Source of the DNA: a virus
Virus record (IMG/VR): IMGVR_UViG_3300037264_001498
Span: 1 to 36,366 of that record
Strand: one strand, 5' to 3'
Length of the DNA: 36,366 nt
Within the stretch, counting starts at the first letter, position 1, and the number at the start of each line of letters is the position of its first letter. A model generated the notes under the pieces. That model saw only the letters and a list, made by a program, of their open reading frames with translations. It was not told the origin of the DNA and did no database searches. Position numbers and translations under genes: made by a program. Below are positions 2,195 through 36,366 of this stretch, piece by piece.

Positions 2195-4803
2195 GCTTGC
2201 CCCGCTGCGCGCATCGCCTGCAGGATGCCCGTCCTGGCCGCGCGCTCGATCCCGGACGCATCACCGTTCGCATAGATGTTGACTGTGATCGTTGGCGCCG
2301 CCCCTTTACCCACCGGTGTCACCGTCACCCTCTCCGGACCCGACTCTCCCACGCCAATCTTGGTGGGGCGGTTGAAAATCCCGTCCAGACCCCCGGCGTA
2401 CCATCCCGTGACATCCTCACCCCGCGACCTCTGGTCCGTTCCGGGTGTCACATTCGGGAACGCGGCGCCGGGCGTCGCAACCGCACCTTCGATCCCCAAC
2501 AAGTCCTTCAACCACTGCGGGATGTCGTTCTTGAGGTTGTTGAACCACGTAGTCACATCGGCCCATGCCGACTTCAATCCGTCCCAGATGCTATTGCCCA
2601 CATTGTGGCCAAACTTTTGCAGCGCTTCGGTTACGTTCTTGTGCACCTGCTCCAGATCCACCCCGAGGATCGTCTTGCTGCCAAACACCAGGTTCTTGAA
2701 GTTGACAGTCAGCAAGTCCCAGGCGCCCTGCGCGATGTCTCCCCAACCCTTGCGCCACGTGTCCGTCCACTGCCCCTTGCTGATGCTTTCCAGGAGGCCG
2801 GTTAGCACCTCAATACCACCTGACCCAATCTTGGCCACGCCAGCCAGGGCCCCCGTGATATTCTTCCACAATTGCCCCGCCCACAGCGCGGCCTTGCCGC
2901 CAATATCCTCCCAGTCCAACTCTGGCTTCGCCTTTATAGTTGTGGGAATGTCACTGAGCTCCACCCCCAGCATTTGCGCCATTTGCAGGCGCTGCCATTC
3001 GGGCATCAGTGGCTCCGGGAACTGGAATATGAGGCCTAGCTTCACCACCGCATCCCACGCAACCGTCAGCGACTTACCAATATCCGCCAGTGCTACCTCC
3101 GTAGTCGTCTTCAGCCCCGGCAATTCGGCCCTGATCCCCTCGGTCAGGCCAGCGGCAAACGGCTTCGCTACGTCGTCCCGCACCTTCGGCCATTCCGTCT
3201 TGATCCAGTCCCAGGCCCCCTGCAGCGCCCCAACAATCCCGCCCTCGCGCTCGATCGGGATGTCATTCAACGACACCCCGAGCGCATCCGCCATCGACTT
3301 GCGCTCGGCATCGCTATACTTGGGCTTGCCCAGCACAACGTCCAGCCCCCCGGTAGCCAGCGGCTTCAGAATATCATCCCGCACCCCCGGCCACGTATCC
3401 GCGAACCACCCCTGGGCATCCTCGAAAGCGCCCGTCAGCCACGTCTTTGCCTTCGGCCAGTTCTGGTCCACCCACGTCTTCACTCCAGACAAGGCATCCC
3501 GAATCCCCAGAAAGTTCGTCGCGTATGCCACACCCAGCCCGGCGACGGCTGCCAACACGAGCCCGATGGGCGACAGCAGCCCGCCCAGCAGGGTCGCGAA
3601 CGTACCCAGCACCATCAGCACCGGCCCAAGTACCACCCCAATCCCGGCGAATGCCAGCCCCAGCTTGAGCGTCTTGTCATCCAGACCGCGCACCCAGTTG
3701 ATGGCCGGTCGAATGTACCGGTCGATCAACTGTCGCAGCGGAGGCATGAGCCGGTTGCCAATGGTAATTGACAATGCGGTCAGCGTGTTCTTCAGATTCG
3801 CCCACTCCGCGCTAAAGCTGCGAGTCTGAATCTCGAACGCTCGCTGCGTCGCGCCCGCTGCGACCCCCATGGTCTTCAGGTCCGCCGTGAACGGCTTCAT
3901 CTCGCCGCGGGTCAGCGCGAGCGCGCCCTTGAGGGCTCGGCTCTCGGGAAATATCGCAGCCAACGCCTCAGCGTTCCCGCCCGCCTTAGCCGTGAGGTCC
4001 GCCATGACCCCCGCCAATCCCTTAGTCTGGATCGCGGTAGCCGACAGGTTGATGCCCAGCGCATTGGCCGCCTTCTTGGCTCCGTCAGCGGGCGAAATGA
4101 ACGAGAGCAAGACTCGATTGAGCGCCGTTGCCGCTTCCGGCGCGCTGATCCCGGCCTTGGTCAGTGTCGCGAACGCCGCGCCCACTTCCTCAATCGGCAC
4201 CTTCGCGACAGCCGCGCTGCTGATCACGTCCCCCAGGTTCGTGGCCAGGTCAGCGAACGTGAGCACGCCCACATCCACGGTCTTGAACAGCACATCGCTA
4301 ACCCGCGCCGCCTCCGTCGCCGGCATCACGTATGCGTTCAGCACGCCCATGATCGCCCGCGCCGCCGTCTGCGTGTCGGAGAGTCCAGCGCTCGCCGCCT
4401 TGGTCGAGACCCCGAGCACGTTCATGGCGTCGGCCCCAAAAAAGCCGCTGGACTGGATGTCGTAGAATGCCCGGGCCAATCCCGACGCCGTGTCCGTAGT
4501 CTTCGTCAGGTCGGTGGACATCTTGACAAAGGTAGCGGACAGCAGTCCGATGTTCTCGTCCGTGTCCTTGCTGATGCTCTGGATGTTACGCATCTCGCGA
4601 TCCAGCTCCGACGTCGCCTTGACCGCCGCCCCGCCGATGCCCAGCAGTGGCACCGTCAGCCCCAGCGTAGCCTTTGCGCCGACGCTCTGCATCGTCGCGC
4701 CCGCATTCATCAGCTTGGTTTCCGTCGTCGCCAACCCCGCGTTGAGCGACGTCAGATCCGCCCCGATCTTTACGAACAGACTCGCAATCTGCTCAGCTGC
4801 CAT
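2191..4803 (-). CDS. Tail tape measure protein
   Basis: At 870 residues this is the longest uninterrupted gene in the window. It sits directly after the tail assembly chaperones, where siphoviruses place the tape measure. The N-terminus (SLFVKIGADLTSLNAGLATTE) and the following Ala/Lys/Thr-rich helical region match the TP901-type tape measure family. A block near residues 370-430 contains long hydrophobic stretches (VVLGPVLMVLGTFATLLGG), as seen in tape measures that later enter the host membrane. The start at ATG 4803 overlaps by one base the stop of the -1 frameshift product of the upstream gene. If the usual rule of roughly 0.15 nm per residue holds, the tail would be about 130 nm long. 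No peptidase or lysozyme domain is evident. Confidence 0.93.
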   Translation of the reverse strand: MAAEQIASLFVKIGADLTSLNAGLATTETKLMNAGATMQSVGAKATLGLTVPLLGIGGAAVKATSELDREMRNIQSISKDTDENIGLLSATFVKMSTDLTKTTDTASGLARAFYDIQSSGFFGADAMNVLGVSTKAASAGLSDTQTAARAIMGVLNAYVMPATEAARVSDVLFKTVDVGVLTFADLATNLGDVISSAAVAKVPIEEVGAAFATLTKAGISAPEAATALNRVLLSFISPADGAKKAANALGINLSATAIQTKGLAGVMADLTAKAGGNAEALAAIFPESRALKGALALTRGEMKPFTADLKTMGVAAGATQRAFEIQTRSFSAEWANLKNTLTALSITIGNRLMPPLRQLIDRYIRPAINWVRGLDDKTLKLGLAFAGIGVVLGPVLMVLGTFATLLGGLLSPIGLVLAAVAGLGVAYATNFLGIRDALSGVKTWVDQNWPKAKTWLTGAFEDAQGWFADTWPGVRDDILKPLATGGLDVVLGKPKYSDAERKSMADALGVSLNDIPIEREGGIVGALQGAWDWIKTEWPKVRDDVAKPFAAGLTEGIRAELPGLKTTTEVALADIGKSLTVAWDAVVKLGLIFQFPEPLMPEWQRLQMAQMLGVELSDIPTTIKAKPELDWEDIGGKAALWAGQLWKNITGALAGVAKIGSGGIEVLTGLLESISKGQWTDTWRKGWGDIAQGAWDLLTVNFKNLVFGSKTILGVDLEQVHKNVTEALQKFGHNVGNSIWDGLKSAWADVTTWFNNLKNDIPQWLKDLLGIEGAVATPGAAFPNVTPGTDQRSRGEDVTGWYAGGLDGIFNRPTKIGVGESGPERVTVTPVGKGAAPTITVNIYANGDASGIERAARTGILQAMRAAGQA

Positions 4804-10592: not shown

Positions 10593-11567
10593 TCAGCCCC
10601 TCACCAGCGTCCCGTAGAACGCCTCGTACTCCCTGCCCATGCGCTCCAGCGTGCACTGCTCCGCCGCCCACGCCCTGGCGTTGTGCCCATACACAGCGCG
10701 CACCCCTGCATCATCCACCAGCGCCTGCAGCGCCCGCGCCAGCGCCTCCGGCTCTCGCGGCGGCACCAACACGCCCCGTGGCGGCTCGCCCGTGAGCTGC
10801 GCCCGTGGCCCACACACGTCCGACGCGATGCAGGCGAGTCCGCATGCCATCGCCTCGGTCAGGCACAGCCCCCACGTTTCCTCGTAGCAGCTCGGAAAGA
10901 CAAAGACGTCGGATTGGCGCAGCTCGTCCCGCACCTGCTGCCTCGGCACGTGCGCCACCAGTGATGCGTTGAACCCAGTCAGCTTCAGCGCCGCCTTCAA
11001 CACGTGCATGCCCTTGGTCGGGTACTCCGGCCAGGCGCTCGTGGTCACGATGCGCACGCCCTCATGCCTATCCGGGCTGGGCGAAAAGAACTCGGTATCG
11101 ATTCCGTGCGGGATCACCGCGTCCACCCGCAGGCCGTGCCGCCTGTAGATGTCGGCGGTGTGTTCGTTGAACGCCACCACCGGCGACGCGTTCACGACCG
11201 GCAGCACCGACGCATCCGCGGGCCTGCCGTTGCAGTCCCCGTCACACCGACCCCTGACCGCCGCGCACGGCTGGTCGCCCTCCCGGAGTAGCATCCGCCC
11301 CGAGCAGAACGGCCAGTAGTCGTGCAGGCTCAGACAGTGCGGGATGCCCGCCTTTTGCGCCCACTGAAGCGGCGTCAGGTTCCAGCCCACGTGGATCGTG
11401 TGAAAGTGGATGATGTCCGGCTTGAACTGCGCATACCCGCGTATCGGGTCCAGGAACTCCAGCCTGACCTCGTGCCCGAGCCGCGTCAGCGCCTCCGCCT
11501 GGTCGCGGATCGCCGACTCCGCGCCCCCGCCCTGGCCCGGGTTGTAGTGAGCGACGAGAATCTTCAT
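10593..11567 (-). CDS. Glycosyltransferase family 4 (cassette gene 4)
   Basis: This 324-residue protein starts at ATG 11567 (MKILVAHYNPGQGGGAES), overlapping the radical SAM stop by ATGA. A longer in-frame reading upstream has no support. The N-terminal Rossmann half has FKPDIIHFHTIH and HDYWPFC with a cluster of Cys (88, 101, 108, 112), seen in some GT4 enzymes. IPHGID at 152-157 starts the C-terminal half. The GT4 signature E-x7-E is E230 to E238 (EETWGLCLTE), which contacts the nucleotide-sugar. It would transfer a sugar with retention, probably in the cytoplasm. The acceptor may be a virion protein, a glycan or a peptide. It is the last gene of the cassette before the surface proteins. 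Confidence 0.88.
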   Translation of the reverse strand: MKILVAHYNPGQGGGAESAIRDQAEALTRLGHEVRLEFLDPIRGYAQFKPDIIHFHTIHVGWNLTPLQWAQKAGIPHCLSLHDYWPFCSGRMLLREGDQPCAAVRGRCDGDCNGRPADASVLPVVNASPVVAFNEHTADIYRRHGLRVDAVIPHGIDTEFFSPSPDRHEGVRIVTTSAWPEYPTKGMHVLKAALKLTGFNASLVAHVPRQQVRDELRQSDVFVFPSCYEETWGLCLTEAMACGLACIASDVCGPRAQLTGEPPRGVLVPPREPEALARALQALVDDAGVRAVYGHNARAWAAEQCTLERMGREYEAFYGTLVRG

Positions 11568-12355
11568 GCAGGCCTCGCCTGAATCTGCCACATATCGCCC
11601 GCCTGGTGCAGTTGCGGCAGCACGTAATAGTCCACACAGTTGAGGGTGCACGGCTGCGGCTTGCGGCTCACGTCCACCGTCCCATCCAACCAGTTGCCCA
11701 GGCTCGTCTCCGCCCAGAATGGCGACCTCAGCGTCGTCAGGCACGGCCACGCCTCGCCGTCCGGCGCCACCGTCAGGTGATTCACCCCGCCCTGGCACAG
11801 CAGGCCCTGCGCGAGCTTCTGGTCTAGATTGTCCATCCGCTCATGCGGCGAGACCGCGAACGGGATCCGCCGGACGCGCATCCACTCAATCACGCCCTGG
11901 CTCTGCTCCACGTTCGTTCCCACGTCGACCACGTTCGGCCCCACCGTGTAGCCCGCCTGCATCAGCATCTGCACCGTCGTCTTCCACCGCTGCTCGTAGC
12001 CACGCCAGCGCCCGACGCACTCCGGGTGCCAGCTCACATTGATGCTCACGAGGTTGCGCAGGCTGATCTCGCAAAGTCGCTCCAACTGGTCGAACGCCAG
12101 CCCGTTCGTGCTCAGCCCAAAGCGCGTCGTCGTGCAGGCACGGATCAGCTCCGGGATCCACGGCAGCAGCATCGGCTCGCCGCCAGCAATGTCGACCGTC
12201 TGCGGCTTGTCCCTCTGGATCGCCCGTACCCAATCGTCCAGCGTTCGCTCCGTCGCGTGCACCAGCTCCGGTCGCTGCAGCACCGTCTGCCGCACCCAGC
12301 AGTAGCTACACGCGTTCTGGCACCGCCAGGTCGGATTGATCAGATAGTGGCTCAT
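11564..12355 (-). CDS. Radical SAM enzyme with SPASM-like C-terminus (cassette gene 3)
   Basis: This 263-residue protein carries the radical SAM cluster motif C12-x3-C16-x2-C19 (CQNACSYC), AGGEPML at 57-63 for SAM binding, and a C-terminal set of cysteines (C187, C205, C236, C240). The last group resembles a SPASM or twitch auxiliary cluster, common in enzymes that modify peptides or proteins. The chemistry would begin with reductive cleavage of SAM to a 5'-deoxyadenosyl radical. The start ATG 12355 lies 7 bases after the stop of the B12-type gene, and the stop overlaps the next glycosyltransferase. The radical SAM identity is firm; the substrate is unknown. A ferredoxin or flavodoxin from the host would have to supply electrons. 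Confidence 0.88.
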   Translation of the reverse strand: MSHYLINPTWRCQNACSYCWVRQTVLQRPELVHATERTLDDWVRAIQRDKPQTVDIAGGEPMLLPWIPELIRACTTTRFGLSTNGLAFDQLERLCEISLRNLVSINVSWHPECVGRWRGYEQRWKTTVQMLMQAGYTVGPNVVDVGTNVEQSQGVIEWMRVRRIPFAVSPHERMDNLDQKLAQGLLCQGGVNHLTVAPDGEAWPCLTTLRSPFWAETSLGNWLDGTVDVSRKPQPCTLNCVDYYVLPQLHQAGDMWQIQARPA

Positions 12356-15313: not shown

Positions 15314-16174
15314 CTAACTCGTCGGGGTCGTGATGTCCGTGAGGATCTGGACACCGTAGGTTGGCCGCCACACGCCATGCGCGTAAAGCGCGGTCAGGTT
15401 CAGCTCCCACGCGCGCTTGCTGGCGTCGCGCTCCGGCTCCAGCCGCAAGTCGCGGCGGATGTCGAACGCGATCGCGGCGGGATTGAACACCGCCCCGTAG
15501 GCGTCGGTTCCGCTCACCTCGCAGTTCGCGCTGACGTAGATGCCATCCAACCCGCCCACGTTGCTCACCCAGAACGACCGCATCACCTCGTCCTGGAACT
15601 GTGGCGCGTTCACCACCGAGCTACCGGCGACCGAGGCCGCCTTCCCCAGGTCGTGCCACTGGTACGGATGCAGCACGCAGTAGTACGGCCGCGGGACCGA
15701 GTTCTTCCTGAGGATGCTCATGGCCGCGTACAGGTAGCCCCAGATCATGGTGGTACCCGACGCGCCCACGGTCCCGCCGGTCAGTGCGTTGAAGTTGCCC
15801 AGGATGTCCGAGTCGATCTTGGTCGCCGCGCCAGCGCCCAGCTCGGTCGCCGCATCCTGGCGCGCGTTCTGCGGGTCCGTCTCGATCCGGCGGTCGGTGA
15901 GGATCACCTGCGCCATGATCTCGCCCGGGGTCAGAGTCGCCAGCGCGTTCTTGTCCATTCGGGTCGGCAGCGCAAAGTCATCCGTCTCCGCCACGCTCAC
16001 CGGCGTGATCGTCGGGTACGTGGTGAGGGTTCGGGTCTGATCCCCGTTCCCGTCGGTAAAGACGCGCACCAGGCGCGTGGCGATGTTCTGCTCTCGCGCC
16101 ACGAACACCGCGTCCTCGTAGATGTTCGCAAAGTAGCTGTTCAGATCAGCTACCCTCGAGTCTCCCGTGGTCAT
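15314..16174 (-). CDS. Major capsid protein (HK97 fold, inferred)
   Basis: This 286-residue protein starts at ATG 16174 after AGAGGTG (MTTGDSRVADLNSYFANIYEDAVFVAREQ). It follows the scaffold gene, the usual order. The pattern is a helical N-arm, an extended segment with strands (DFALPTRMDKNALATLTPGEIMAQVILTD), a long helix, and a C-terminal part with YGVQILTD. No N-terminal cleaved delta domain is present, in keeping with a separate scaffold. Length and order match small HK97-fold capsid proteins. I cannot prove the fold from sequence alone. Confidence 0.85.
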   Translation of the reverse strand: MTTGDSRVADLNSYFANIYEDAVFVAREQNIATRLVRVFTDGNGDQTRTLTTYPTITPVSVAETDDFALPTRMDKNALATLTPGEIMAQVILTDRRIETDPQNARQDAATELGAGAATKIDSDILGNFNALTGGTVGASGTTMIWGYLYAAMSILRKNSVPRPYYCVLHPYQWHDLGKAASVAGSSVVNAPQFQDEVMRSFWVSNVGGLDGIYVSANCEVSGTDAYGAVFNPAAIAFDIRRDLRLEPERDASKRAWELNLTALYAHGVWRPTYGVQILTDITTPTS

Positions 16175-16184
16175 GTTTCACCTC

Positions 16185-16814
16185 TCATTGTTCCTTGAGC
16201 GTCGGACGGTACACGCCCCCTCCCCGGTTCGCATTCCCCAGAATCGAGGCGCCCCGCCCGAACAGTCTCTCTCTCCGGTCGGCGTCCGTCTCGCCCTGCG
16301 CGCCCCCGCGCGCCGGGTTCGTCGCGCCGACATTGCTCCTGCCCAGCAGGTACGGCTTGCCCTTGGCGATGCCGTCCAGCTCCTGGGCCACGCCCTCCAC
16401 CGCGCCGGCGTCACTGACCTTGACCTTGGCCAGGTCGATCAGCCGGTAGGCGTCGGACGGGTCCACAAAGCCGAGCTTGCTCGCCTCGGCCACCACAGCG
16501 CTCCGGATCAGCAGCTCCGTTCGCTCCTGGCTCAGTCTCGCGTTCTGTTCCTGGAGCCCTGCCGCCTTCTCCATCGCCTTCTGCAGCTCCGTCTTCTGTG
16601 CGTCTTGCGTCTCCTGCCACTTGGCCGCCGCTGTCTTGAGCGTGTCATAGTCCGCATACTTGCCCCGCTCGCGTTCGAGGCGTTCCTTGACGATGCGGTC
16701 TACATCGGCCTGGCTGAACTTGGTCGCGCCCTGGGCGTCTCCGGTTTTGTCCGGGTCGGAGCCCGTGCCCGTCTGCGCGCCTGCCGCCTGCTGAGTCTCG
16801 TCTTCCGTACTCAT
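16185..16814 (-). CDS. Capsid scaffolding protein (DUF4355-like)
   Basis: This 209-residue, highly charged protein has an acidic, disordered N-terminus (MSTEDETQQAAGAQTGTG), a long helical coiled-coil centre (DVDRIVKERLERERGKYADYDTLK... to ...LLIRSAVVAEASKLGF, about residues 37-135) and a Gly-rich tail. It lies between the MuF-like and capsid genes. FSQADVDRIVKERLERERGKY is the typical start of phage scaffold proteins of the DUF4355 type. It would guide capsid assembly and then leave the particle. The start ATG 16814 follows GAGGGG. Confidence 0.85.
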   Translation of the reverse strand: MSTEDETQQAAGAQTGTGSDPDKTGDAQGATKFSQADVDRIVKERLERERGKYADYDTLKTAAAKWQETQDAQKTELQKAMEKAAGLQEQNARLSQERTELLIRSAVVAEASKLGFVDPSDAYRLIDLAKVKVSDAGAVEGVAQELDGIAKGKPYLLGRSNVGATNPARGGAQGETDADRRERLFGRGASILGNANRGGGVYRPTLKEQ

Positions 16815-22567: not shown

Positions 22568-22755
22568 TTCGCCTCCCGCCAGTTGTTGCACTTTTTGCAT
22601 GTACTGGCGTCGACCGGCTTCCCCTTGCCCTTGCGCCAGCAGAGCGCCTGCACTGGCGCGCCCTTGCTCACGCGCCGCGCCTCCGAGCCATGGGTGCAGT
22701 TGGCGTGGGTGTGATCGACTGCTACGGGTTGGGGTTCGACGTGTGTGTCTTCCAT
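22564..22755 (-). CDS. Small Cys/His protein
   Basis: This 63-residue protein starts at ATG 22755, overlapping the gene before it by one base, and ends in ATGA with the next. It contains HANCTHGSEA and ends CKKCNNWREAK. The Cys and His spacing suggests a metal site. Size and coupling are like the other tiny early genes. Function unknown. Confidence 0.6.
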   Translation of the reverse strand: MEDTHVEPQPVAVDHTHANCTHGSEARRVSKGAPVQALCWRKGKGKPVDASTCKKCNNWREAK

Positions 22756-23084
22756 CAGAACGCTGCCTCCGACTCAACATCTGTTTCGCCATGCTCACCT
22801 GGCGTTGGCAGCGCCTTGCGCATCAGTCCCTGCACAGTCCACTGGCTCATCGGCTCCGGCATGCACCCCTTCGCGGCCAGTTGTGCAGTCTCCTCATCCA
22901 CGATGGTCATGCTGTAGATCGCGCCCTGGCCGAAAAGTCGTGTCATCGGCTGCACGCCCTCGCGTGCCGGCACATCCACTCGGACGAACGCGGTGCCCCC
23001 GACCGTCTGCTCCGACACTCGCCCAGCAATGCGTTGGTGCCCGAACAGCTCGACAATCGCCCACTCCTCGAAACGCTCTGTCAT
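22755..23084 (-). CDS. Conserved phage protein of unknown function
   Basis: This 109-residue protein starts at ATG 23084 (MTERFEEWAIVELFGHQRIAG) after GAGGAGGG; a longer reading from 23156 would run into the iteron region. AIVELFGHQRIAGRVSE and YSMTIVDEETAQL recur in phage proteins that I have seen near replication genes, where they often carry unreliable labels. Function is unknown. The gene is first after the candidate origin. Confidence 0.75.
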   Translation of the reverse strand: MTERFEEWAIVELFGHQRIAGRVSEQTVGGTAFVRVDVPAREGVQPMTRLFGQGAIYSMTIVDEETAQLAAKGCMPEPMSQWTVQGLMRKALPTPGEHGETDVESEAAF

Positions 23085-23144
23085 GTCTCCCTCCTCTGTA
23101 CAAACTCCAGTACGCAGAGCGGCTACGCGCCCGGCTGTATCTAT

Positions 23145-23312
23145 CCGTTTTACCAACCGCTTCCCACTCCTACGATTTCGTGCTTGATTTCAGGCCGTTT
23201 TACCCTTTACCATCCCTTAAGTTAAACTTTCCTGGTAAAACGGTAAAGCGTATTTTACCACCGTTTTACCTTAGCAGTAAAACGCCGGTAAAACGGTGGT
23301 AAAACGGTAAAG
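23145..23312. other. Candidate replication origin with iterons
   Basis: Six perfect copies of the 10-base motif CCGTTTTACC occur in both orientations: forward at 23145, 23195, 23261 and reverse (GGTAAAACGG) at 23234, 23287, 23298. Shortened copies lie at 23251 and 23276. A 15-base form GGTAAAACGGTAAAG occurs twice (23234, 23298). The block lies in an A+T-rich gap with TTAAGTTAAAC in a G+C-rich genome, directly after the RepA-like ATPase gene. No gene fits here. An origin is the best reading; operator clusters are the alternative. Confidence 0.65.
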
Positions 23313-23319
23313 GCTCGCA

Positions 23320-24690
23320 TCACTGCGTAACCCATGCCGGCGCATCCTTAGCTTCTACCGGCAGTCCATACATCCGCTCGTTTGTCTTGCTCCCGGGAAT
23401 AGGGATTGAGCGTAACTTGTTTTGAGTCACCCCGATGGAGCAGGTCTTGCGAACCGTCGATAGAAGGTCTCCGGTCGCCTCCGCTATCGCCTCTGGCTTG
23501 AGCGCTCCGTGCTCCAGCGCCTTGACGATGCGTTGCATCACTGTCAGCTTTTCCACCAAGTCCACCTCGTCTATCAATGCCCCTTGCGTAACAGTTGCCG
23601 TCTTAGTGCTGCCATTCGGAAAGTCGAGAAACTCCCAGGTGAGGGCGACAGATTCCGGAACTCGCCCATCACTCAGCTTCACATTCCGGGCCGCCACTTT
23701 TTTGACCCCGCCGGTGTCGTGCCGCACATCCTCCGTCGTGCTGAGTTCTGTGATTGTCCGCGCCACGTTGAAAATGTAGACGCTGCCGAACATGTTGTGA
23801 CGTTCCGGCCCCTCCATCCCCGTGCTCTTGCGTTTGTGGTGGGACTCCAAGGCGGGTACCCCCAGCTCTTGCACCCAGGCGTGGTGTCGGTTCGTCGTGT
23901 TAGAGTCCTCAATCGCCCCCAGAGGTGCCGATGCCATGCCCAGGGAGTCGATCATCAGAAGGCCGATCTTGAATCTGTCGATCTCGTCTTCTACCCAGCG
24001 CATATTGTCCCCGAGGCTCCCGGTAACTCGGCGCCAGTGGAATGGGATAGCCTCTCGCTCTTCTACGGGCAGGGTATCCGCACCTAGCCCGCGCATCACC
24101 GCCCACCATCGCTTGCGCTGGCGCTCCTCCTCGGCTTCCCAATCCAAGAACAGAACCGGTATCGGAGCTCGCAGTGGTTCGCCGGATCTGTCACCTATGC
24201 CCAGAGCCAGACGCAGCCCGATCCAAGTCATAAGGTACGACTTCGACGTTCCGCCCTCACCGAACAGAATGCTCACGCCGTCCGACTGGACATATGGATA
24301 GTACATCCATATCGGGGTGGTCATGTCTGGCTCTTTGGCCAGAAGCTTGATCGATGGCGTGCCTCGCCGGTACTCCCGCAAAAGGAGACGGGCGACGCCG
24401 TGCACAACATCATTCCAGTTTCCGGTCAGCTGCCCGTTGGCTTTGCTCAGTGACTCCGCGAGCTGGTCGAGGGTGCGATGCGCGTAGAGGTTGGTGCGAG
24501 TGATTAGGAGATCTCGCGGCTCGCGTGCGTCAATAGCGTCGTACCACGTCCAGAGCGCGTGTATGCCATCACGACTGCGCTCTACATCATCCACCTGGAC
24601 GAGGACCTTCGACGTGGGATGCAGGATGCGGAACCGATCACCCCGCCGAGTCCACTCAAAGGGAGTAGGCTCGTCGAATAGCTCGCTCAC
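23320..24690 (-). CDS. RepA-like RecA-fold ATPase / helicase
   Basis: This 456-residue protein starts at ATG 24690, overlapping the DnaB-N gene by ATGA. Residues about 130-330 are a RecA-like (AAA_25/RepA type) ATPase: Walker A FGEGGTSKS (143-151), Walker B IGLLMIDSLG (242-251) and SHHKRKS (283-289). The N-terminal 110 residues are an added domain with strands, and the C-terminal 70 (QRIVKALEHGALKPEAIAEATGDLLSTVRK) look like a winged helix. It would unwind DNA at the fork or load at the iterons immediately downstream. It lacks a DnaB N-terminal domain, which the gene before it supplies. Confidence 0.85.
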   Translation of the reverse strand: MSELFDEPTPFEWTRRGDRFRILHPTSKVLVQVDDVERSRDGIHALWTWYDAIDAREPRDLLITRTNLYAHRTLDQLAESLSKANGQLTGNWNDVVHGVARLLLREYRRGTPSIKLLAKEPDMTTPIWMYYPYVQSDGVSILFGEGGTSKSYLMTWIGLRLALGIGDRSGEPLRAPIPVLFLDWEAEEERQRKRWWAVMRGLGADTLPVEEREAIPFHWRRVTGSLGDNMRWVEDEIDRFKIGLLMIDSLGMASAPLGAIEDSNTTNRHHAWVQELGVPALESHHKRKSTGMEGPERHNMFGSVYIFNVARTITELSTTEDVRHDTGGVKKVAARNVKLSDGRVPESVALTWEFLDFPNGSTKTATVTQGALIDEVDLVEKLTVMQRIVKALEHGALKPEAIAEATGDLLSTVRKTCSIGVTQNKLRSIPIPGSKTNERMYGLPVEAKDAPAWVTQ

Positions 24691-25085: not shown

Positions 25086-25105
25086 CGGCTTGCTCCTTAA
25101 ATGCG

Positions 25106-25181
25106 AAAAGCTCTACGGAATCGCCGTCGCTAGGATGGCCGAGCTTGGGGAAACAAGGCCGCGCCAGCGACTCCGTAGAGC
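25106..25181 (-). promoter_or_regulatory. Leader hairpin before the replication genes
   Basis: GCTCTACGGA (25110-25119) pairs with TCCGTAGAGC (25172-25181), continued by GTCGCT (25126-25131) with AGCGAC (25166-25171) after a six-base bulge. Four T follow on the minus strand (25109-25106). A second pair, GGGGAAACA (25147-25155) with TGTTTCCCC (25211-25219), interlocks with it, because one arm lies in the loop. It may be an attenuator. Confidence 0.6.
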
Positions 25182-25226
25182 CTTTCTCATTTCGTCACCA
25201 TCCCTTCCCCTGTTTCCCCTATGCTC

Positions 25227-25255
25227 AGTATACCCGCAAACGCCCGCGTTGTCAA
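25227..25255 (-). promoter_or_regulatory. Near-consensus sigma70-type promoter with possible operator
   Basis: Minus strand: TTGACA at 25255-25250, a spacer of 17, and TATACT at 25232-25227. The spacer holds AACGC-GG-GCGTT, an inverted repeat well placed for a repressor. It starts right after the XRE gene and points to the DnaB-N and helicase genes. Confidence 0.85.
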
Positions 25256-25273: not shown

Positions 25274-25510
25274 TCACTTCCCCGCCCTCACTCCCCGCAC
25301 CGTTGCGCTGTCCAAGTCCCAGATGTTCTGTCCGCAATCGAGCACCCGCGAGATCGCCAGCGCCAGCGCCATGTCGCAAATACCGCCATGCTCCAGCTCC
25401 CAGATGCACCGCGGCGAGACGTTGCACCGCGCCCCGAGCCTGGCCTGGGTCATGCCGTACAGCTCCCTGGCGCGACGGAGTGCGTTGGCGGGACGGCGCC
25501 TGCCGGTCAT
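25274..25510 (-). CDS. XRE-family helix-turn-helix regulator
   Basis: This 78-residue protein starts at ATG 25510, overlapping the stop before it by ATGA. It is a nearly bare Cro/CI-type DNA-binding domain: ANALRRARELYGMTQARLGARCNVSPRCIWELEHGG (residues 8-43), where MTQARLG...VS is the helix-turn-helix, then two more helices. A promoter with an inverted repeat in its spacer lies just downstream, so it may control the replication genes. There is no sign of an integrase partner. Confidence 0.85.
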   Translation of the reverse strand: MTGRRRPANALRRARELYGMTQARLGARCNVSPRCIWELEHGGICDMALALAISRVLDCGQNIWDLDSATVRGVRAGK

Positions 25511-26238
25511 GGCTGGGACTCCAAGTACGGCAGCGCCCGGTACTGCGCCAAATCCGGCCAGTAGGCGATGAGATTATCCTTGCAGAACAGAGGCACCCCG
25601 GCCGCCGTCGCCGCCTCGATGATGTTGTCCACCCAACGGCGTTCGGGCTTGACTGCGCCTGGGCCTGTCATGGCTCCTATGATTGTCCACTCGATCCCCT
25701 TCAGGTGCTGCGGCAGCAAGTCGATTCCGTCAGTGAGGGGCTCAAAGCTGACGAACCTGTGCGCCACGTCCACGCGCCGGAGCTGGCCGATCCTGCGATA
25801 GTGCTCGACCGCGCCGGACTCGACCGACACGCCAAGCCAGAATCGCGCCGTGTCTGGAGGTGCGCCATAGTCGGGCACATCCACCCACATCCCTGGGTTG
25901 TAGAGATCGGGCCGTTTGGTCAAGAGCAGGTAGGTATGCTCTGGCGTGTTGCCAATGACGTATCCGACTCGTTCTTGCCAGTCAGGCAGCACGCCCGGGC
26001 TGAACAGGTCCCCCATGATGCACGTCAGAATGGTGGACGGCACCCGTACATTGAGCGGAGACAGTTTGGTGCGGTGCAACGTTGGCTCAAACCCGTTCTG
26101 GTACTTGGCCGGAAACCGCTGCACCATCCGCCTGGCCCAGCACCATTTGCATCCGTTCCTACAACCCGTGACCGGGGACCAATTATATGCGCCCGAACCG
26201 TCTGGATTCCGTGCCCACTCAATCCGGGTTCTATTCAC
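25507..26238 (-). CDS. Phage Gp37/Gp68-family (DUF5131) radical-SAM-like protein
   Basis: This 243-residue protein starts at GTG 26238 (MNRTRIEWARNPDGSGAYNWSP). C26-x3-C30-x2-C33 (CRNGCKWCWARR) is a radical SAM cluster motif, and the pattern TIEW...NP..GC...C..C is the start of DUF5131. Later landmarks are VIGNTPEHTYLLLTKRP, FWLGVSVES and RFVSFEPL, and GAMTGPGAVKPERRWV, all typical. Members are common in phages; their substrate is unknown. It is the third radical-SAM-type protein in this genome. Confidence 0.9.
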   Translation of the reverse strand: MNRTRIEWARNPDGSGAYNWSPVTGCRNGCKWCWARRMVQRFPAKYQNGFEPTLHRTKLSPLNVRVPSTILTCIMGDLFSPGVLPDWQERVGYVIGNTPEHTYLLLTKRPDLYNPGMWVDVPDYGAPPDTARFWLGVSVESGAVEHYRRIGQLRRVDVAHRFVSFEPLTDGIDLLPQHLKGIEWTIIGAMTGPGAVKPERRWVDNIIEAATAAGVPLFCKDNLIAYWPDLAQYRALPYLESQP

Positions 26239-26401
26239 GCTTTCTGCCTCCGCCTCGAAAGTGCCCGTCCAAGAACCTGCGGGGCCGACCCTTGGAGTCG
26301 TATCGCAGGAGGTGAGTGCCACACCCACACGCGCAAGTGATTTCGGGATTGACCTCACCAAAAGCGCGACGATCTGCGCGCTTGCGATGGTATTTCGCCA
26401 T
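26231..26401 (-). CDS. Small Cys-rich basic protein
   Basis: This 56-residue protein starts at ATG 26401 (MAKYHRKRADRRAFGEVN). It contains CACGCGTHLLRYDSKGRPRRFLDGHFRGG, in which C.CGCG and a following GH form the core of a small metal-binding family common in phages. Its function is unknown. It follows the HNH gene; the sequence around its start repeats that at the HNH start. Confidence 0.65.
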   Translation of the reverse strand: MAKYHRKRADRRAFGEVNPEITCACGCGTHLLRYDSKGRPRRFLDGHFRGGGRKRE

Positions 26402-26414
26402 GCTACGCCGCCTC
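26399..26414. repeat. 16-base direct repeat, left flank of the HNH gene
   Basis: CATGCTACGCCGCCTC occurs here and again at 26916-26931, so the HNH gene lies between two exact copies. Each copy spans a stop and the next start. See the findings. Confidence 0.85.
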
Positions 26415-26918
26415 TGCCGTCGCTGGCTGCAACGGCCCACGTTTCAGGAGAGCCAGACGGAACTGCTCGCCCGTCTTCACTCCCTTGGCGTGGTTGCAGC
26501 GATTGCATGCGGGAACTACGTTGTCCCCCTCATTGCGTCCACCCCGAGACAGTGGGATCACGTGCTCTACCTCAAGCACACCATCACAGCCACAGTAGGC
26601 GCAGCGATGTTCGTAGCGTTCAAGTATCTCTGCCCACTCTTGGCTGGTAAGGTCGTGCGAAATTGACTCCGCTTTGTGGCGGGAACGATGGTGATTAACA
26701 TAGCGGATGGTAGCCCTCGGAGTTGGCTCGGCTGGTTTGGGCGGTCTGATGAGCCAGGGTAGTGTCTCGCACGACAATCCGCATCCAGAACACTGGCTGA
26801 ACCATGTTCCATTTCGCTGTTGAACATCCATTGGAGAACCACAGTCCGGACAGACGGCCAGCCTCCGGAGAGTGGCCAGAATTGTCGCGCCAATCCTAGA
26901 AGAAGAATCGCTCATCAT
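26403..26918 (-). CDS. HNH endonuclease with N-terminal zinc ribbon
   Basis: This 171-residue protein starts at ATG 26918 (MMSDSSSRIGATIL). Residues 23-46 form a zinc ribbon (CPDC...CSGC). The HNH domain spans 103-146: C106-x2-C109, then LEVEHVIPLSRGGRNEGDNVV with E118, H119 and N133, and CNRCNHAKG. The pattern is complete, so the enzyme should be active. The gene lies between exact 16-base repeats and between two genes that otherwise join neatly, so it is probably a mobile (homing-type) insertion and not a packaging nuclease. Confidence 0.88.
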   Translation of the reverse strand: MMSDSSSRIGATILATLRRLAVCPDCGSPMDVQQRNGTWFSQCSGCGLSCETLPWLIRPPKPAEPTPRATIRYVNHHRSRHKAESISHDLTSQEWAEILERYEHRCAYCGCDGVLEVEHVIPLSRGGRNEGDNVVPACNRCNHAKGVKTGEQFRLALLKRGPLQPATAEAA

Positions 26919-35324: not shown

Positions 35325-36366
35325 GTCGCCACCAACCAGTACCCGATCTGATCGACTGTGTTCGCGCCGGTCACGATCTCATCCGAGTACAAGTCCCCCA
35401 CTGCGATGCTCAGGATATCTCCGCCCGTCCAGGTCACGAGGCTGCTCACGTCGCCGCTCCCGCCCGACTGCGAGTCCAGCAATGTGGCATCGCTAGGATC
35501 GTGGCGCTCAATCGTCCAATCGCCCCCGCTGTCGCGCGTGGCGACGATGGCAGGATTCGCGCCCCCACAGTAGATGTTGATCGTCACGTCGTTGTCGGTG
35601 GAGTGAACGATGATGGAGGGATAGTTGCCGGCCTCCCCGACCGGGAATGTCTGCAAGGCCACGGTATCATTGGCATCGAGCAACCATGCGCCTGACGCGA
35701 TGCTGTTCCCGCCGCCGACAATCGTCACAATGGTCGCGTCGTTGCCGGCATCATCCGTGGCGGTCACCCTGGCCCCAACAAAGTTGAGATTGGCGCGAGC
35801 GGTGAGCGGAGTGCCTTCTTCCTGGATAACGTGGCCGCCCCCGCCTGGGGTGGTCAGCTCCCAGCCATCCGCAGCCGTGTTGACGGTCACCGCCTGGCCA
35901 GCGGTCGCGCCGGCGGGGAGGGTGTGCCGGGGGCCGGTGATGACGTGCGCCAGCGGCGTCGTCTCCAGTTGCGCCGGGTCTCGGAAATGGGTATTGCCCG
36001 CCCCCGTTGAGATCAGCACCGTATTCAGCGCCGCCGGCGTCGGGCTCTGAAAGCCGCTCGTGTCGATCGTGTTCATCGGCTGGTTACGGCCCGCCATGCG
36101 GTCAATCGTCATCACACGCCGCCGCAGCTTCTCCGCCTCCGACTCTGGCCAGGCATCAATCGTGCTCAGGACCATCCGCGCCGTGCGCACGCCCTGCTCC
36201 GACACTTCCGTCGTCGCCTCGAGCACGATCAGGTCTGCGTCGATGGCCAGCCCGTTGTATCCATCCACCCACTCGCTGTACACCACCCGCACGGTGTCGC
36301 CCGGGTACACGGCCTGGTCGAGCTTGGCGACCGTGACCTCATACGCCTGGTTCAGCGCGGAATTCT
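35321..36366 (-). CDS. Tail hub / receptor-region protein, C-terminal about 341 residues (gene starts at 1408)
   Basis: This is the continuation of the tail hub gene across the sequence ends. Reading minus from 36366, codons NSALNQAYEVTVAKLDQ lead into YPGDTVRVVYSEW..., so a start at GTG 36310 is only apparent. It has helices (EAEKLRRRVMTIDRM) and then the fibre-like segment GHVIQEEGTPLTARANLNFVGARVTATDD, a common fold-back motif of phage tail tips. A strand-rich end (GNYPSIIVHSTDNDVTINIY) follows. It stops at 35321, overlapping the propeller gene. Confidence 0.85.
   Translation of the reverse strand, partial: NSALNQAYEVTVAKLDQAVYPGDTVRVVYSEWVDGYNGLAIDADLIVLEATTEVSEQGVRTARMVLSTIDAWPESEAEKLRRRVMTIDRMAGRNQPMNTIDTSGFQSPTPAALNTVLISTGAGNTHFRDPAQLETTPLAHVITGPRHTLPAGATAGQAVTVNTAADGWELTTPGGGGHVIQEEGTPLTARANLNFVGARVTATDDAGNDATIVTIVGGGNSIASGAWLLDANDTVALQTFPVGEAGNYPSIIVHSTDNDVTINIYCGGANPAIVATRDSGGDWTIERHDPSDATLLDSQSGGSGDVSSLVTWTGGDILSIAVGDLYSDEIVTGANTVDQIGYWLVAT
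36344..36366. repeat. Terminal direct repeat, right copy
   Basis: These 23 bases are identical to 2-24; the base before differs (A at 36343, C at 1). See the left copy for the reading as a circular closure. Confidence 0.85.

Follow-up and report, generated by a model that had tools for sequence, protein, structure and literature searches.

Here, we describe a cluster of about 11 short repeats (23145-23312) directly behind the gene for a RepA/DnaB-fold ATPase in a 36,366-base virus record (analysed over its whole length, and called the window below), which is very probably the site where this phage starts copying its DNA. The cluster is best explained as an initiator-coupled replication origin in which the layout "rep gene, then iteron ori" is carried by a RecA-fold helicase, a reading that we hold with high confidence. 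The phage seems to represent an undescribed group, in which a ring-helicase-type protein would carry a domain for DNA recognition and bind a site placed immediately after its own gene. The record is that of a tailed phage, with recognised portal, large and small terminase, tape measure, head/tail and M23 peptidase proteins, and its annotated genes lie on the minus strand. Unusual cargo, in the form of glycosyltransferase-like and radical-SAM genes, is found amid the structural genes (10593-12355). An exact 23-base repeat, CGCCTGGTTCAGCGCGGAATTCT, is present at both ends (2-24 and 36344-36366, one base off the left end); given this repeat, the genome may be closed or circularly permuted, although the record carries no such mark.

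In the cluster, GGTAAAACGG occurs in six perfect copies, half of them on each strand, and in five shortened ones, all within the gap 23085-23319 (Table 1), and the repeats start 8 bases past the stop codon of the ATPase gene (minus strand, ending at 23320). An earlier note on this DNA, made from the sequence alone, had listed the six perfect copies, three in each direction, and partial copies besides, all of which were found again in the same place. Its 11-base spacing is real, and what it had claimed for one pair is seen in two runs (23277/23288/23299 on the plus strand and 23253/23264 on the minus strand); an 8-bp spacing occurs in two pairs (23234/23242 and 23298/23306). Perfect copies of GGTAAAACGG are found nowhere else in the 36,366-base genome, and allowing one mismatch adds a single match (21766), with a shuffle expectation of 1.15 and no shuffle reaching 7. 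No 10-mer exceeded 2 copies in 3,000 dinucleotide shuffles of the gap (6 observed), and 2 is also the maximum for any 10-mer in every other 235-bp window of the genome.

Table 1. Features of the proposed origin and the neighbouring replication genes, in window coordinates.
Feature	Coordinates	Strand	Basis
Next gene, phrog_29525 (family without assigned function); ATG behind a good ribosome-binding sequence; bounds the gap	22755-23084	-	
Iteron 1, GGTAAAACGG	23145-23154	-	
Iteron pair oriented away from the ATPase, GGTAAAACGG (23195-23204) with short GGTAAAG (23205-23211)	23195-23211	-	
80-bp stretch of lowest stability in the genome; candidate DNA unwinding element	23201-23280		nearest-neighbour energy
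A+T-rich spacer ATCCCTTAAGTTAAACTTTCCT separating the two inverted iteron pairs; candidate site of first melting	23212-23233		
Iteron pair with 8-bp spacing, GGTAAAACGG (23234-23243) and GGTAAAG (23242-23248)	23234-23248	+	
Two iterons with 11-bp spacing, shortened GGTAAAA (23253-23259) and full GGTAAAACGG (23261-23270)	23253-23270	-	
Left arm of perfect 18-bp inverted repeat	23253-23270		
Three iterons with 11-bp spacing, shortened GTAAAACG (23277-23284), full (23287-23296) and full (23298-23307)	23277-23312	+	
Short GGTAAAG closing the plus-strand iteron run	23306-23312	+	
RepA/DnaB-fold ATPase, 456 aa, start GTG; proposed initiator-helicase	23320-24690	-	AAA_25, E 3.1e-12
C-terminal winged helix of the ATPase (residues ~384-442); proposed iteron-binding domain	23365-23541	-	model and profile
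Free-standing DnaB N-terminal (collar) domain protein, 132 aa	24687-25085	-	PF00772, E 1e-21
Promoter-like TTGACA-17-TATACT ahead of the DnaB-N/ATPase pair	25227-25255	-	consensus match only
Small HTH protein	25274-25510		

The gap was described in the earlier note as an A+T-rich interval in a G+C-rich genome, and its G+C content is indeed 48%, compared to 64% for the genome. By nearest-neighbour energy, the genome has its weakest duplex in this gap at each of four lengths (80, 100, 150 and 200 bp), and among all 30-bp windows of the genome 23217-23246 ranks second in instability. The A+T-rich segment 23212-23233 is framed by two iteron pairs in inverted orientation (23195-23211 and 23234-23248). 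GC skew, proposed earlier as a check on the origin, was calculated and is uninformative: it stays below zero over almost the whole 36,366-base stretch and nowhere turns, and no turning point is expected because nearly all genes lie on one strand.

The perfect 18-bp inverted repeat, together with RNA that folds better than shuffled sequence on both strands (z of about -5), could also be taken to mean that the inverted copies encode an RNA hairpin that acts behind the ATPase gene, either as a terminator or as a regulatory RNA. We consider this very improbable, as no U run follows, no terminator is predicted there and no Rfam match was obtained, while a hairpin would need neither the copies lying apart at 23145 and 23195 nor the 11- and 8-bp spacings. 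The strong folding is a by-product of the inverted copies, and the order and orientation of copies vary widely among the related clusters described below.

On the minus strand, a promoter-like site is followed by the gene for the DnaB N-terminal domain, the ATPase gene and then the repeats. The PF00772 match of the 132-aa protein is complete (positions 3-103 of 103) and its gene overlaps the ATPase start by 4 bases, so that the collar and the RecA domain, which form one protein in DnaB, are encoded here by two overlapping genes. Genes for a RecT-like annealing protein and an HNH endonuclease are found among those upstream, and one for a RusA-like resolvase is found downstream; neither a DNA polymerase nor a primase was recognised among the proteins searched. 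Between the promoter-like site (25227-25255) and the DnaB-N gene lies an imperfect 32-base inverted repeat (25099-25192, 84%), possibly an attenuator, terminator or operator of the replication genes. A DUF5131 protein (E 4.8e-37) is encoded at 25507-26508, directly upstream of the HTH gene.

The neighbour of the cluster had been called a RepA-like ATPase, and this assignment stands: the Pfam match is to AAA_25, the best solved relative by profile is RSF1010 RepA (1g8y, E 1.7e-6), and the structure model (folded with 52 homologs, pLDDT 90.4) compares to DnaB, RSF1010 RepA and RadA with Z of about 20, in a list that is filled by the one RecA-fold domain and beyond which other chains may exist. 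The model divides the protein into an N-terminal domain (about 110 residues), the RecA-fold core and, at the C-terminus, a winged helix. The last is predicted with high confidence, in agreement with the winged-helix part named in the earlier note; in the model it comprises helices 384-394, 399-406 and 410-422 and strands 427-430 and 439-442, and the family profile matches winged-helix chains over the C-terminal part of the ATPase. Residues K150 (the Walker A lysine), D183, E185, D248 and R311 are invariant across the 52 ATPase sequences, the conserved acidic residues being present, and from their fold, members of this subfamily would be expected to act as helicases. Homology to SaPI Rep, Cch or P4 alpha was not found with the profiles used, by which the ATPase matches AAA_25, RepA and DnaB, with neither DUF927 nor any other match in Pfam.

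Homologs of the ATPase were gathered by protein sequence only, without using the repeats; a Walker-A DNA pattern yielded one homolog, L034, which made the alignment search possible. After removal of redundancy, the viral set contained 52 scorable loci including this phage. Each locus was scored between positions -50 and +250 relative to the ATPase stop codon, using as statistic the most copies of any one 8-mer, with both orientations present, per 300-bp stretch. At least 4 mixed copies were found in 12 of 51 loci (this phage excluded) compared to 6 of 9,457 control windows taken elsewhere in the same loci (Fisher p 2.5e-24), and at least 5 copies in 8 of 52 loci (this phage among them) compared to none of the 9,457. 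Among the 3' ends of other genes in these loci, 1 of 472 had a cluster, and that one lies within the own cluster of L123. For a bacterial test, the family profile was run over 396 genomes of the phylum of G063 (Acidobacteriota) and 291 of the phylum of G062 (Chthonomonadaceae), and at least 4 mixed copies were found behind the ATPase stop codon in 8 of 20 scorable loci compared to 7 of 1,153 controls (p 9e-12), with nine copies in L141. The contrast is weaker when iterons are counted with one mismatch than with exact copies. Motifs are largely private to each locus (TCTAACAA, AACCGCAACA, GCGCAACAC, AATCGGAC, TTGGACA, GGTAACATT, CGTGACAG and others). This recurrence of largely private clusters behind the stop codons of homologous ATPase genes lends comparative support to the earlier proposal of a probable origin read by the winged helix of the ATPase.

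Of the loci that have a cluster, L061 is closest to this phage in the tree, and its cluster is arranged in the same way: TTACC-ending iterons run in one direction, followed by an A+T-rich hairpin and then by iterons running in the other. L070, which also has a cluster, carries a separate DnaB-N gene that likewise overlaps the ATPase gene by 4 bases. In L095, a partial DnaB-N match is located at the opposite contig end, and would lie directly upstream of the ATPase if the contig is circular. An unsplit form was observed in L083 (4338-6122), in which the DnaB N-terminal domain is fused to the RepA-like ATPase with its winged helix in one ORF, and CCGGGACA iterons begin at the ATPase stop codon. 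Similarity between motifs tracks similarity between winged helices weakly (Mantel r 0.21, p 0.017), including with core similarity held constant (partial p 0.04).

No clear cluster is present behind the ATPase in 32 of 52 viral homologs (about 60%), among them L062, which is close in the tree. This absence is concentrated in one supported clade, all 17 members of which are without a cluster, and the sites in these cluster-less phages may be longer, more degenerate or located elsewhere. Winged-helix presence was considered as an explanation for which loci have clusters and gave no clean split, since C-terminal domains resembling a winged helix are also present in the cluster-less clade, and in several of its members the winged helix is a similar one. 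In many proteins of this clade (L066, L087, L097, L105 and relatives), the C-terminal tail terminates in acidic residues plus EW. L040, the locus around the ATPase of L034 (G018, 25% identity), gave no iteron cluster, and its next gene starts immediately after the ATPase gene.

A second set of phages was found by the large terminase and then scanned for mixed clusters without bias. The ATPase is not common to these terminase relatives, and the scan returned three mixed clusters, all at initiator genes. In L054, 12 TAGGAACA iterons lie directly behind the gene for a DUF927 + HTH_56 (Cch-type) helicase, clearly a Cch-like phage origin; they are arranged as six in one direction and then six in the other (16172-16471). 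In L025, a AACCCTCC cluster is located in the 3' part of a Toprim primase-helicase gene. In L023, a GTCCACCA cluster lies inside a Phage_rep_O gene, with dnaB next, and serves as an internal control because the origin of phage lambda lies inside gene O. The mixed cluster of L023 spans 1686-1797; a separate 15-bp tandem repeat (3780-4150) sits in a predicted pentapeptide-like ORF with repeating ADLTGARLTG.

These comparisons also bear on whether the cluster is an operator array, through which a phage repressor (such as the HTH protein at 25274-25510, or the ATPase winged helix acting as an autoregulator) would control a promoter for 22755-23084 and the following genes. The cluster does lie upstream of a gene with a good ribosome-binding sequence, an HTH protein is encoded nearby, and a weak promoter-like match (9 of 12, TTTACT-18-TAAAAT) overlaps the repeats. 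We nonetheless judge it unlikely, as eleven sites over 168 bp are many for an operator, the promoter-like site of the DnaB-N/ATPase pair (25227-25255) is without any motif copy, and relatives that use other initiators also have the cluster at the initiator gene, in one case within a gene of the O type. Across the homologous loci, the constant neighbour is the ATPase upstream, whereas the genes after the clusters are mutually unrelated, which is evidence against an operator of a particular downstream gene. Because of the promoter-like match, a regulatory role such as autoregulation is possible besides, or instead of, an origin function; iteron plasmids show that the two functions can go together. 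Another kind of protein-DNA site of a mobile element, such as integrase arm sites at attP, a parS-like partition site or a packaging site, would likewise take the form of short repeats clustered in an A+T-rich gap, and we assign this reading the smallest probability of all, since no integrase, excisionase or ParA/ParB was recognised among the proteins scanned, the terminase genes are about 2.3 kb off and do not adjoin the gap, and recurrence of the cluster tracks the helicase-type gene.

An initiator-coupled origin would operate as follows, the steps beyond "iterons behind the gene" being drawn by analogy from known relatives (SaPI Rep, PICI origins and F13 GP46). The ATPase would bind the GGTAAAACGG iterons through its C-terminal winged helix, and oligomers on the inverted iteron sets would strain and melt the A+T-rich stretch. 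Rings of the RecA-fold helicase could then be placed on both strands, amounting to self-loading, and the separate DnaB N-terminal domain may join the ring as a collar at which the host primase DnaG would dock. The host would supply DNA synthesis as well as the primase, because no primase or DNA polymerase was recognised among the proteins searched.

The individual features of this arrangement have counterparts in several known systems. RSF1010 RepA, which belongs to a RepA/RepB/RepC replicon and shares the ring-helicase fold, is without a DNA-recognition domain, and iterons are bound by a separate RepC. Iteron-type origins at an initiator gene are known in phage, as for lambda O, a protein that lacks an ATPase and relies on P to recruit host DnaB. 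In this phage, which would likewise have an iteron origin tied to an initiator gene, the winged helix is fused to the ATPase, the cluster is intergenic and behind the gene, and no O-type protein was recognised. The P4 alpha protein is an initiator-helicase whose C-terminal winged helix binds short iterons in both orientations; it is, however, a primase-helicase of another superfamily, and its ori and crr are not directly behind its gene. P4 alpha and its ori are also mentioned in PMC6092414.

Iteron-type origins at an initiator gene are also found in satellite islands (PMC7581432; PMC6092414). The C-terminal domain of SaPI Rep recognises iterons directly downstream of its own gene (PMC7581432), and PICI origins, in which two iteron sets flank an A+T-rich region, function on a plasmid (PMC6092414). 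The SaPI/PICI rep-ori units (SaPIbov1, SaPI1, EcCICFT073) resemble the present locus in having iterons directly downstream of the initiator-helicase gene (here 23145-23312), two iteron sets around an A+T-rich region (here 23195-23211 and 23234-23248 around 23212-23233) and an element-specific motif. For the C-terminal iteron-recognising domain of SaPI/PICI Rep, the candidate counterpart here is the predicted winged helix, whose correlation with the motif is weak. Unlike in these islands, a DnaB N-terminal-domain protein is encoded upstream and no primase was recognised; SaPI Rep and its Cch relatives are other helicase families, whereas the ATPase is of the RecA-fold RepA/DnaB type. In SCCmec, the operon similarly ends in a helicase gene (Cch/Cch2) with a putative iteron origin right behind, and the C-terminal domain of Cch/Cch2 binds the direct repeats (PMC7581432), but helicase family and accessory genes differ and Cch is not homologous to the ATPase by the profiles used. 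GP46 of Lactococcus phage F13 is a RecA-fold ATPase of the RepA/AAA_25 group for which 5'-3' DNA helicase activity was demonstrated, and the available part of that source mentions neither a winged helix nor downstream iterons (PMC8965321).

Iteron plasmids (RK2, F, P1 and pSC101) have direct repeats of about 17-22 bp, a WH1-WH2 Rep and DnaA boxes at the origin. Here, the motif is 10 bp in both orientations, no plasmid Rep family is among the Pfam and PHROG matches of the genes scanned, and the exact DnaA box TTATNCACA is absent from the whole 36,366-base stretch, although divergent boxes may be present. From the fact that iteron origins are best known from plasmids, it had been argued that the phage may replicate like a plasmid at first; this does not follow, because such origins at initiator genes are known in phages and satellite islands.

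Single-sequence searches with the ATPase against viral contigs, genome contigs and annotated phages gave no match, and neither this ATPase nor three family members had a match in 50,697 annotated phage records at E 1e-5. In a plasmid collection, two of these four ATPases had no match at E 1e-5, and at most one weak partial (tblastn) match was obtained. Many members of the ATPase family match PHROG families of unknown function, and the group seems to be restricted to prophages and viruses that have not been cultured. A DNA pattern for exact tandem iterons had no match in viral contigs, and none is expected because the motifs are private. A RecA-fold helicase of the RepA/DnaB type that combines a winged helix of its own with a detached collar and with private iterons following its gene was not encountered in the open-access literature searched; the layout (SaPI/PICI) and the families of the parts are already known, and their combination appears to be new.

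Helicases of the DnaB/RepA fold that act in replication normally depend on other proteins, namely DnaA or O to find the origin and DnaC, P or DciA to open or load the ring. Here, the domains of the ATPase and the constant position of the private iterons suggest that a single RecA-fold protein, whether its collar is detached or fused, does both origin-finding and loading. SaPI Rep and P4 alpha follow this self-finding, self-loading strategy, which in the present family would have arisen on another helicase scaffold. More tentatively, and with a likelihood that we place slightly short of even, this may be an initiator-helicase family of uncultured phages in which a RepA/DnaB-fold ring ATPase gained a winged helix, finds its own origin and loads itself, and travels with the iterons behind its gene as one cassette, the collar being a separate gene here and in L070, as in a DnaB divided in two, and perhaps capturing the host primase without host DnaB or a loader. 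For annotation of such phages, the rule would be to seek the origin directly behind the ATPase stop codon. The family also offers a many-fold set of protein-motif pairs for direct tests of origin recognition and of origin swapping between phages.
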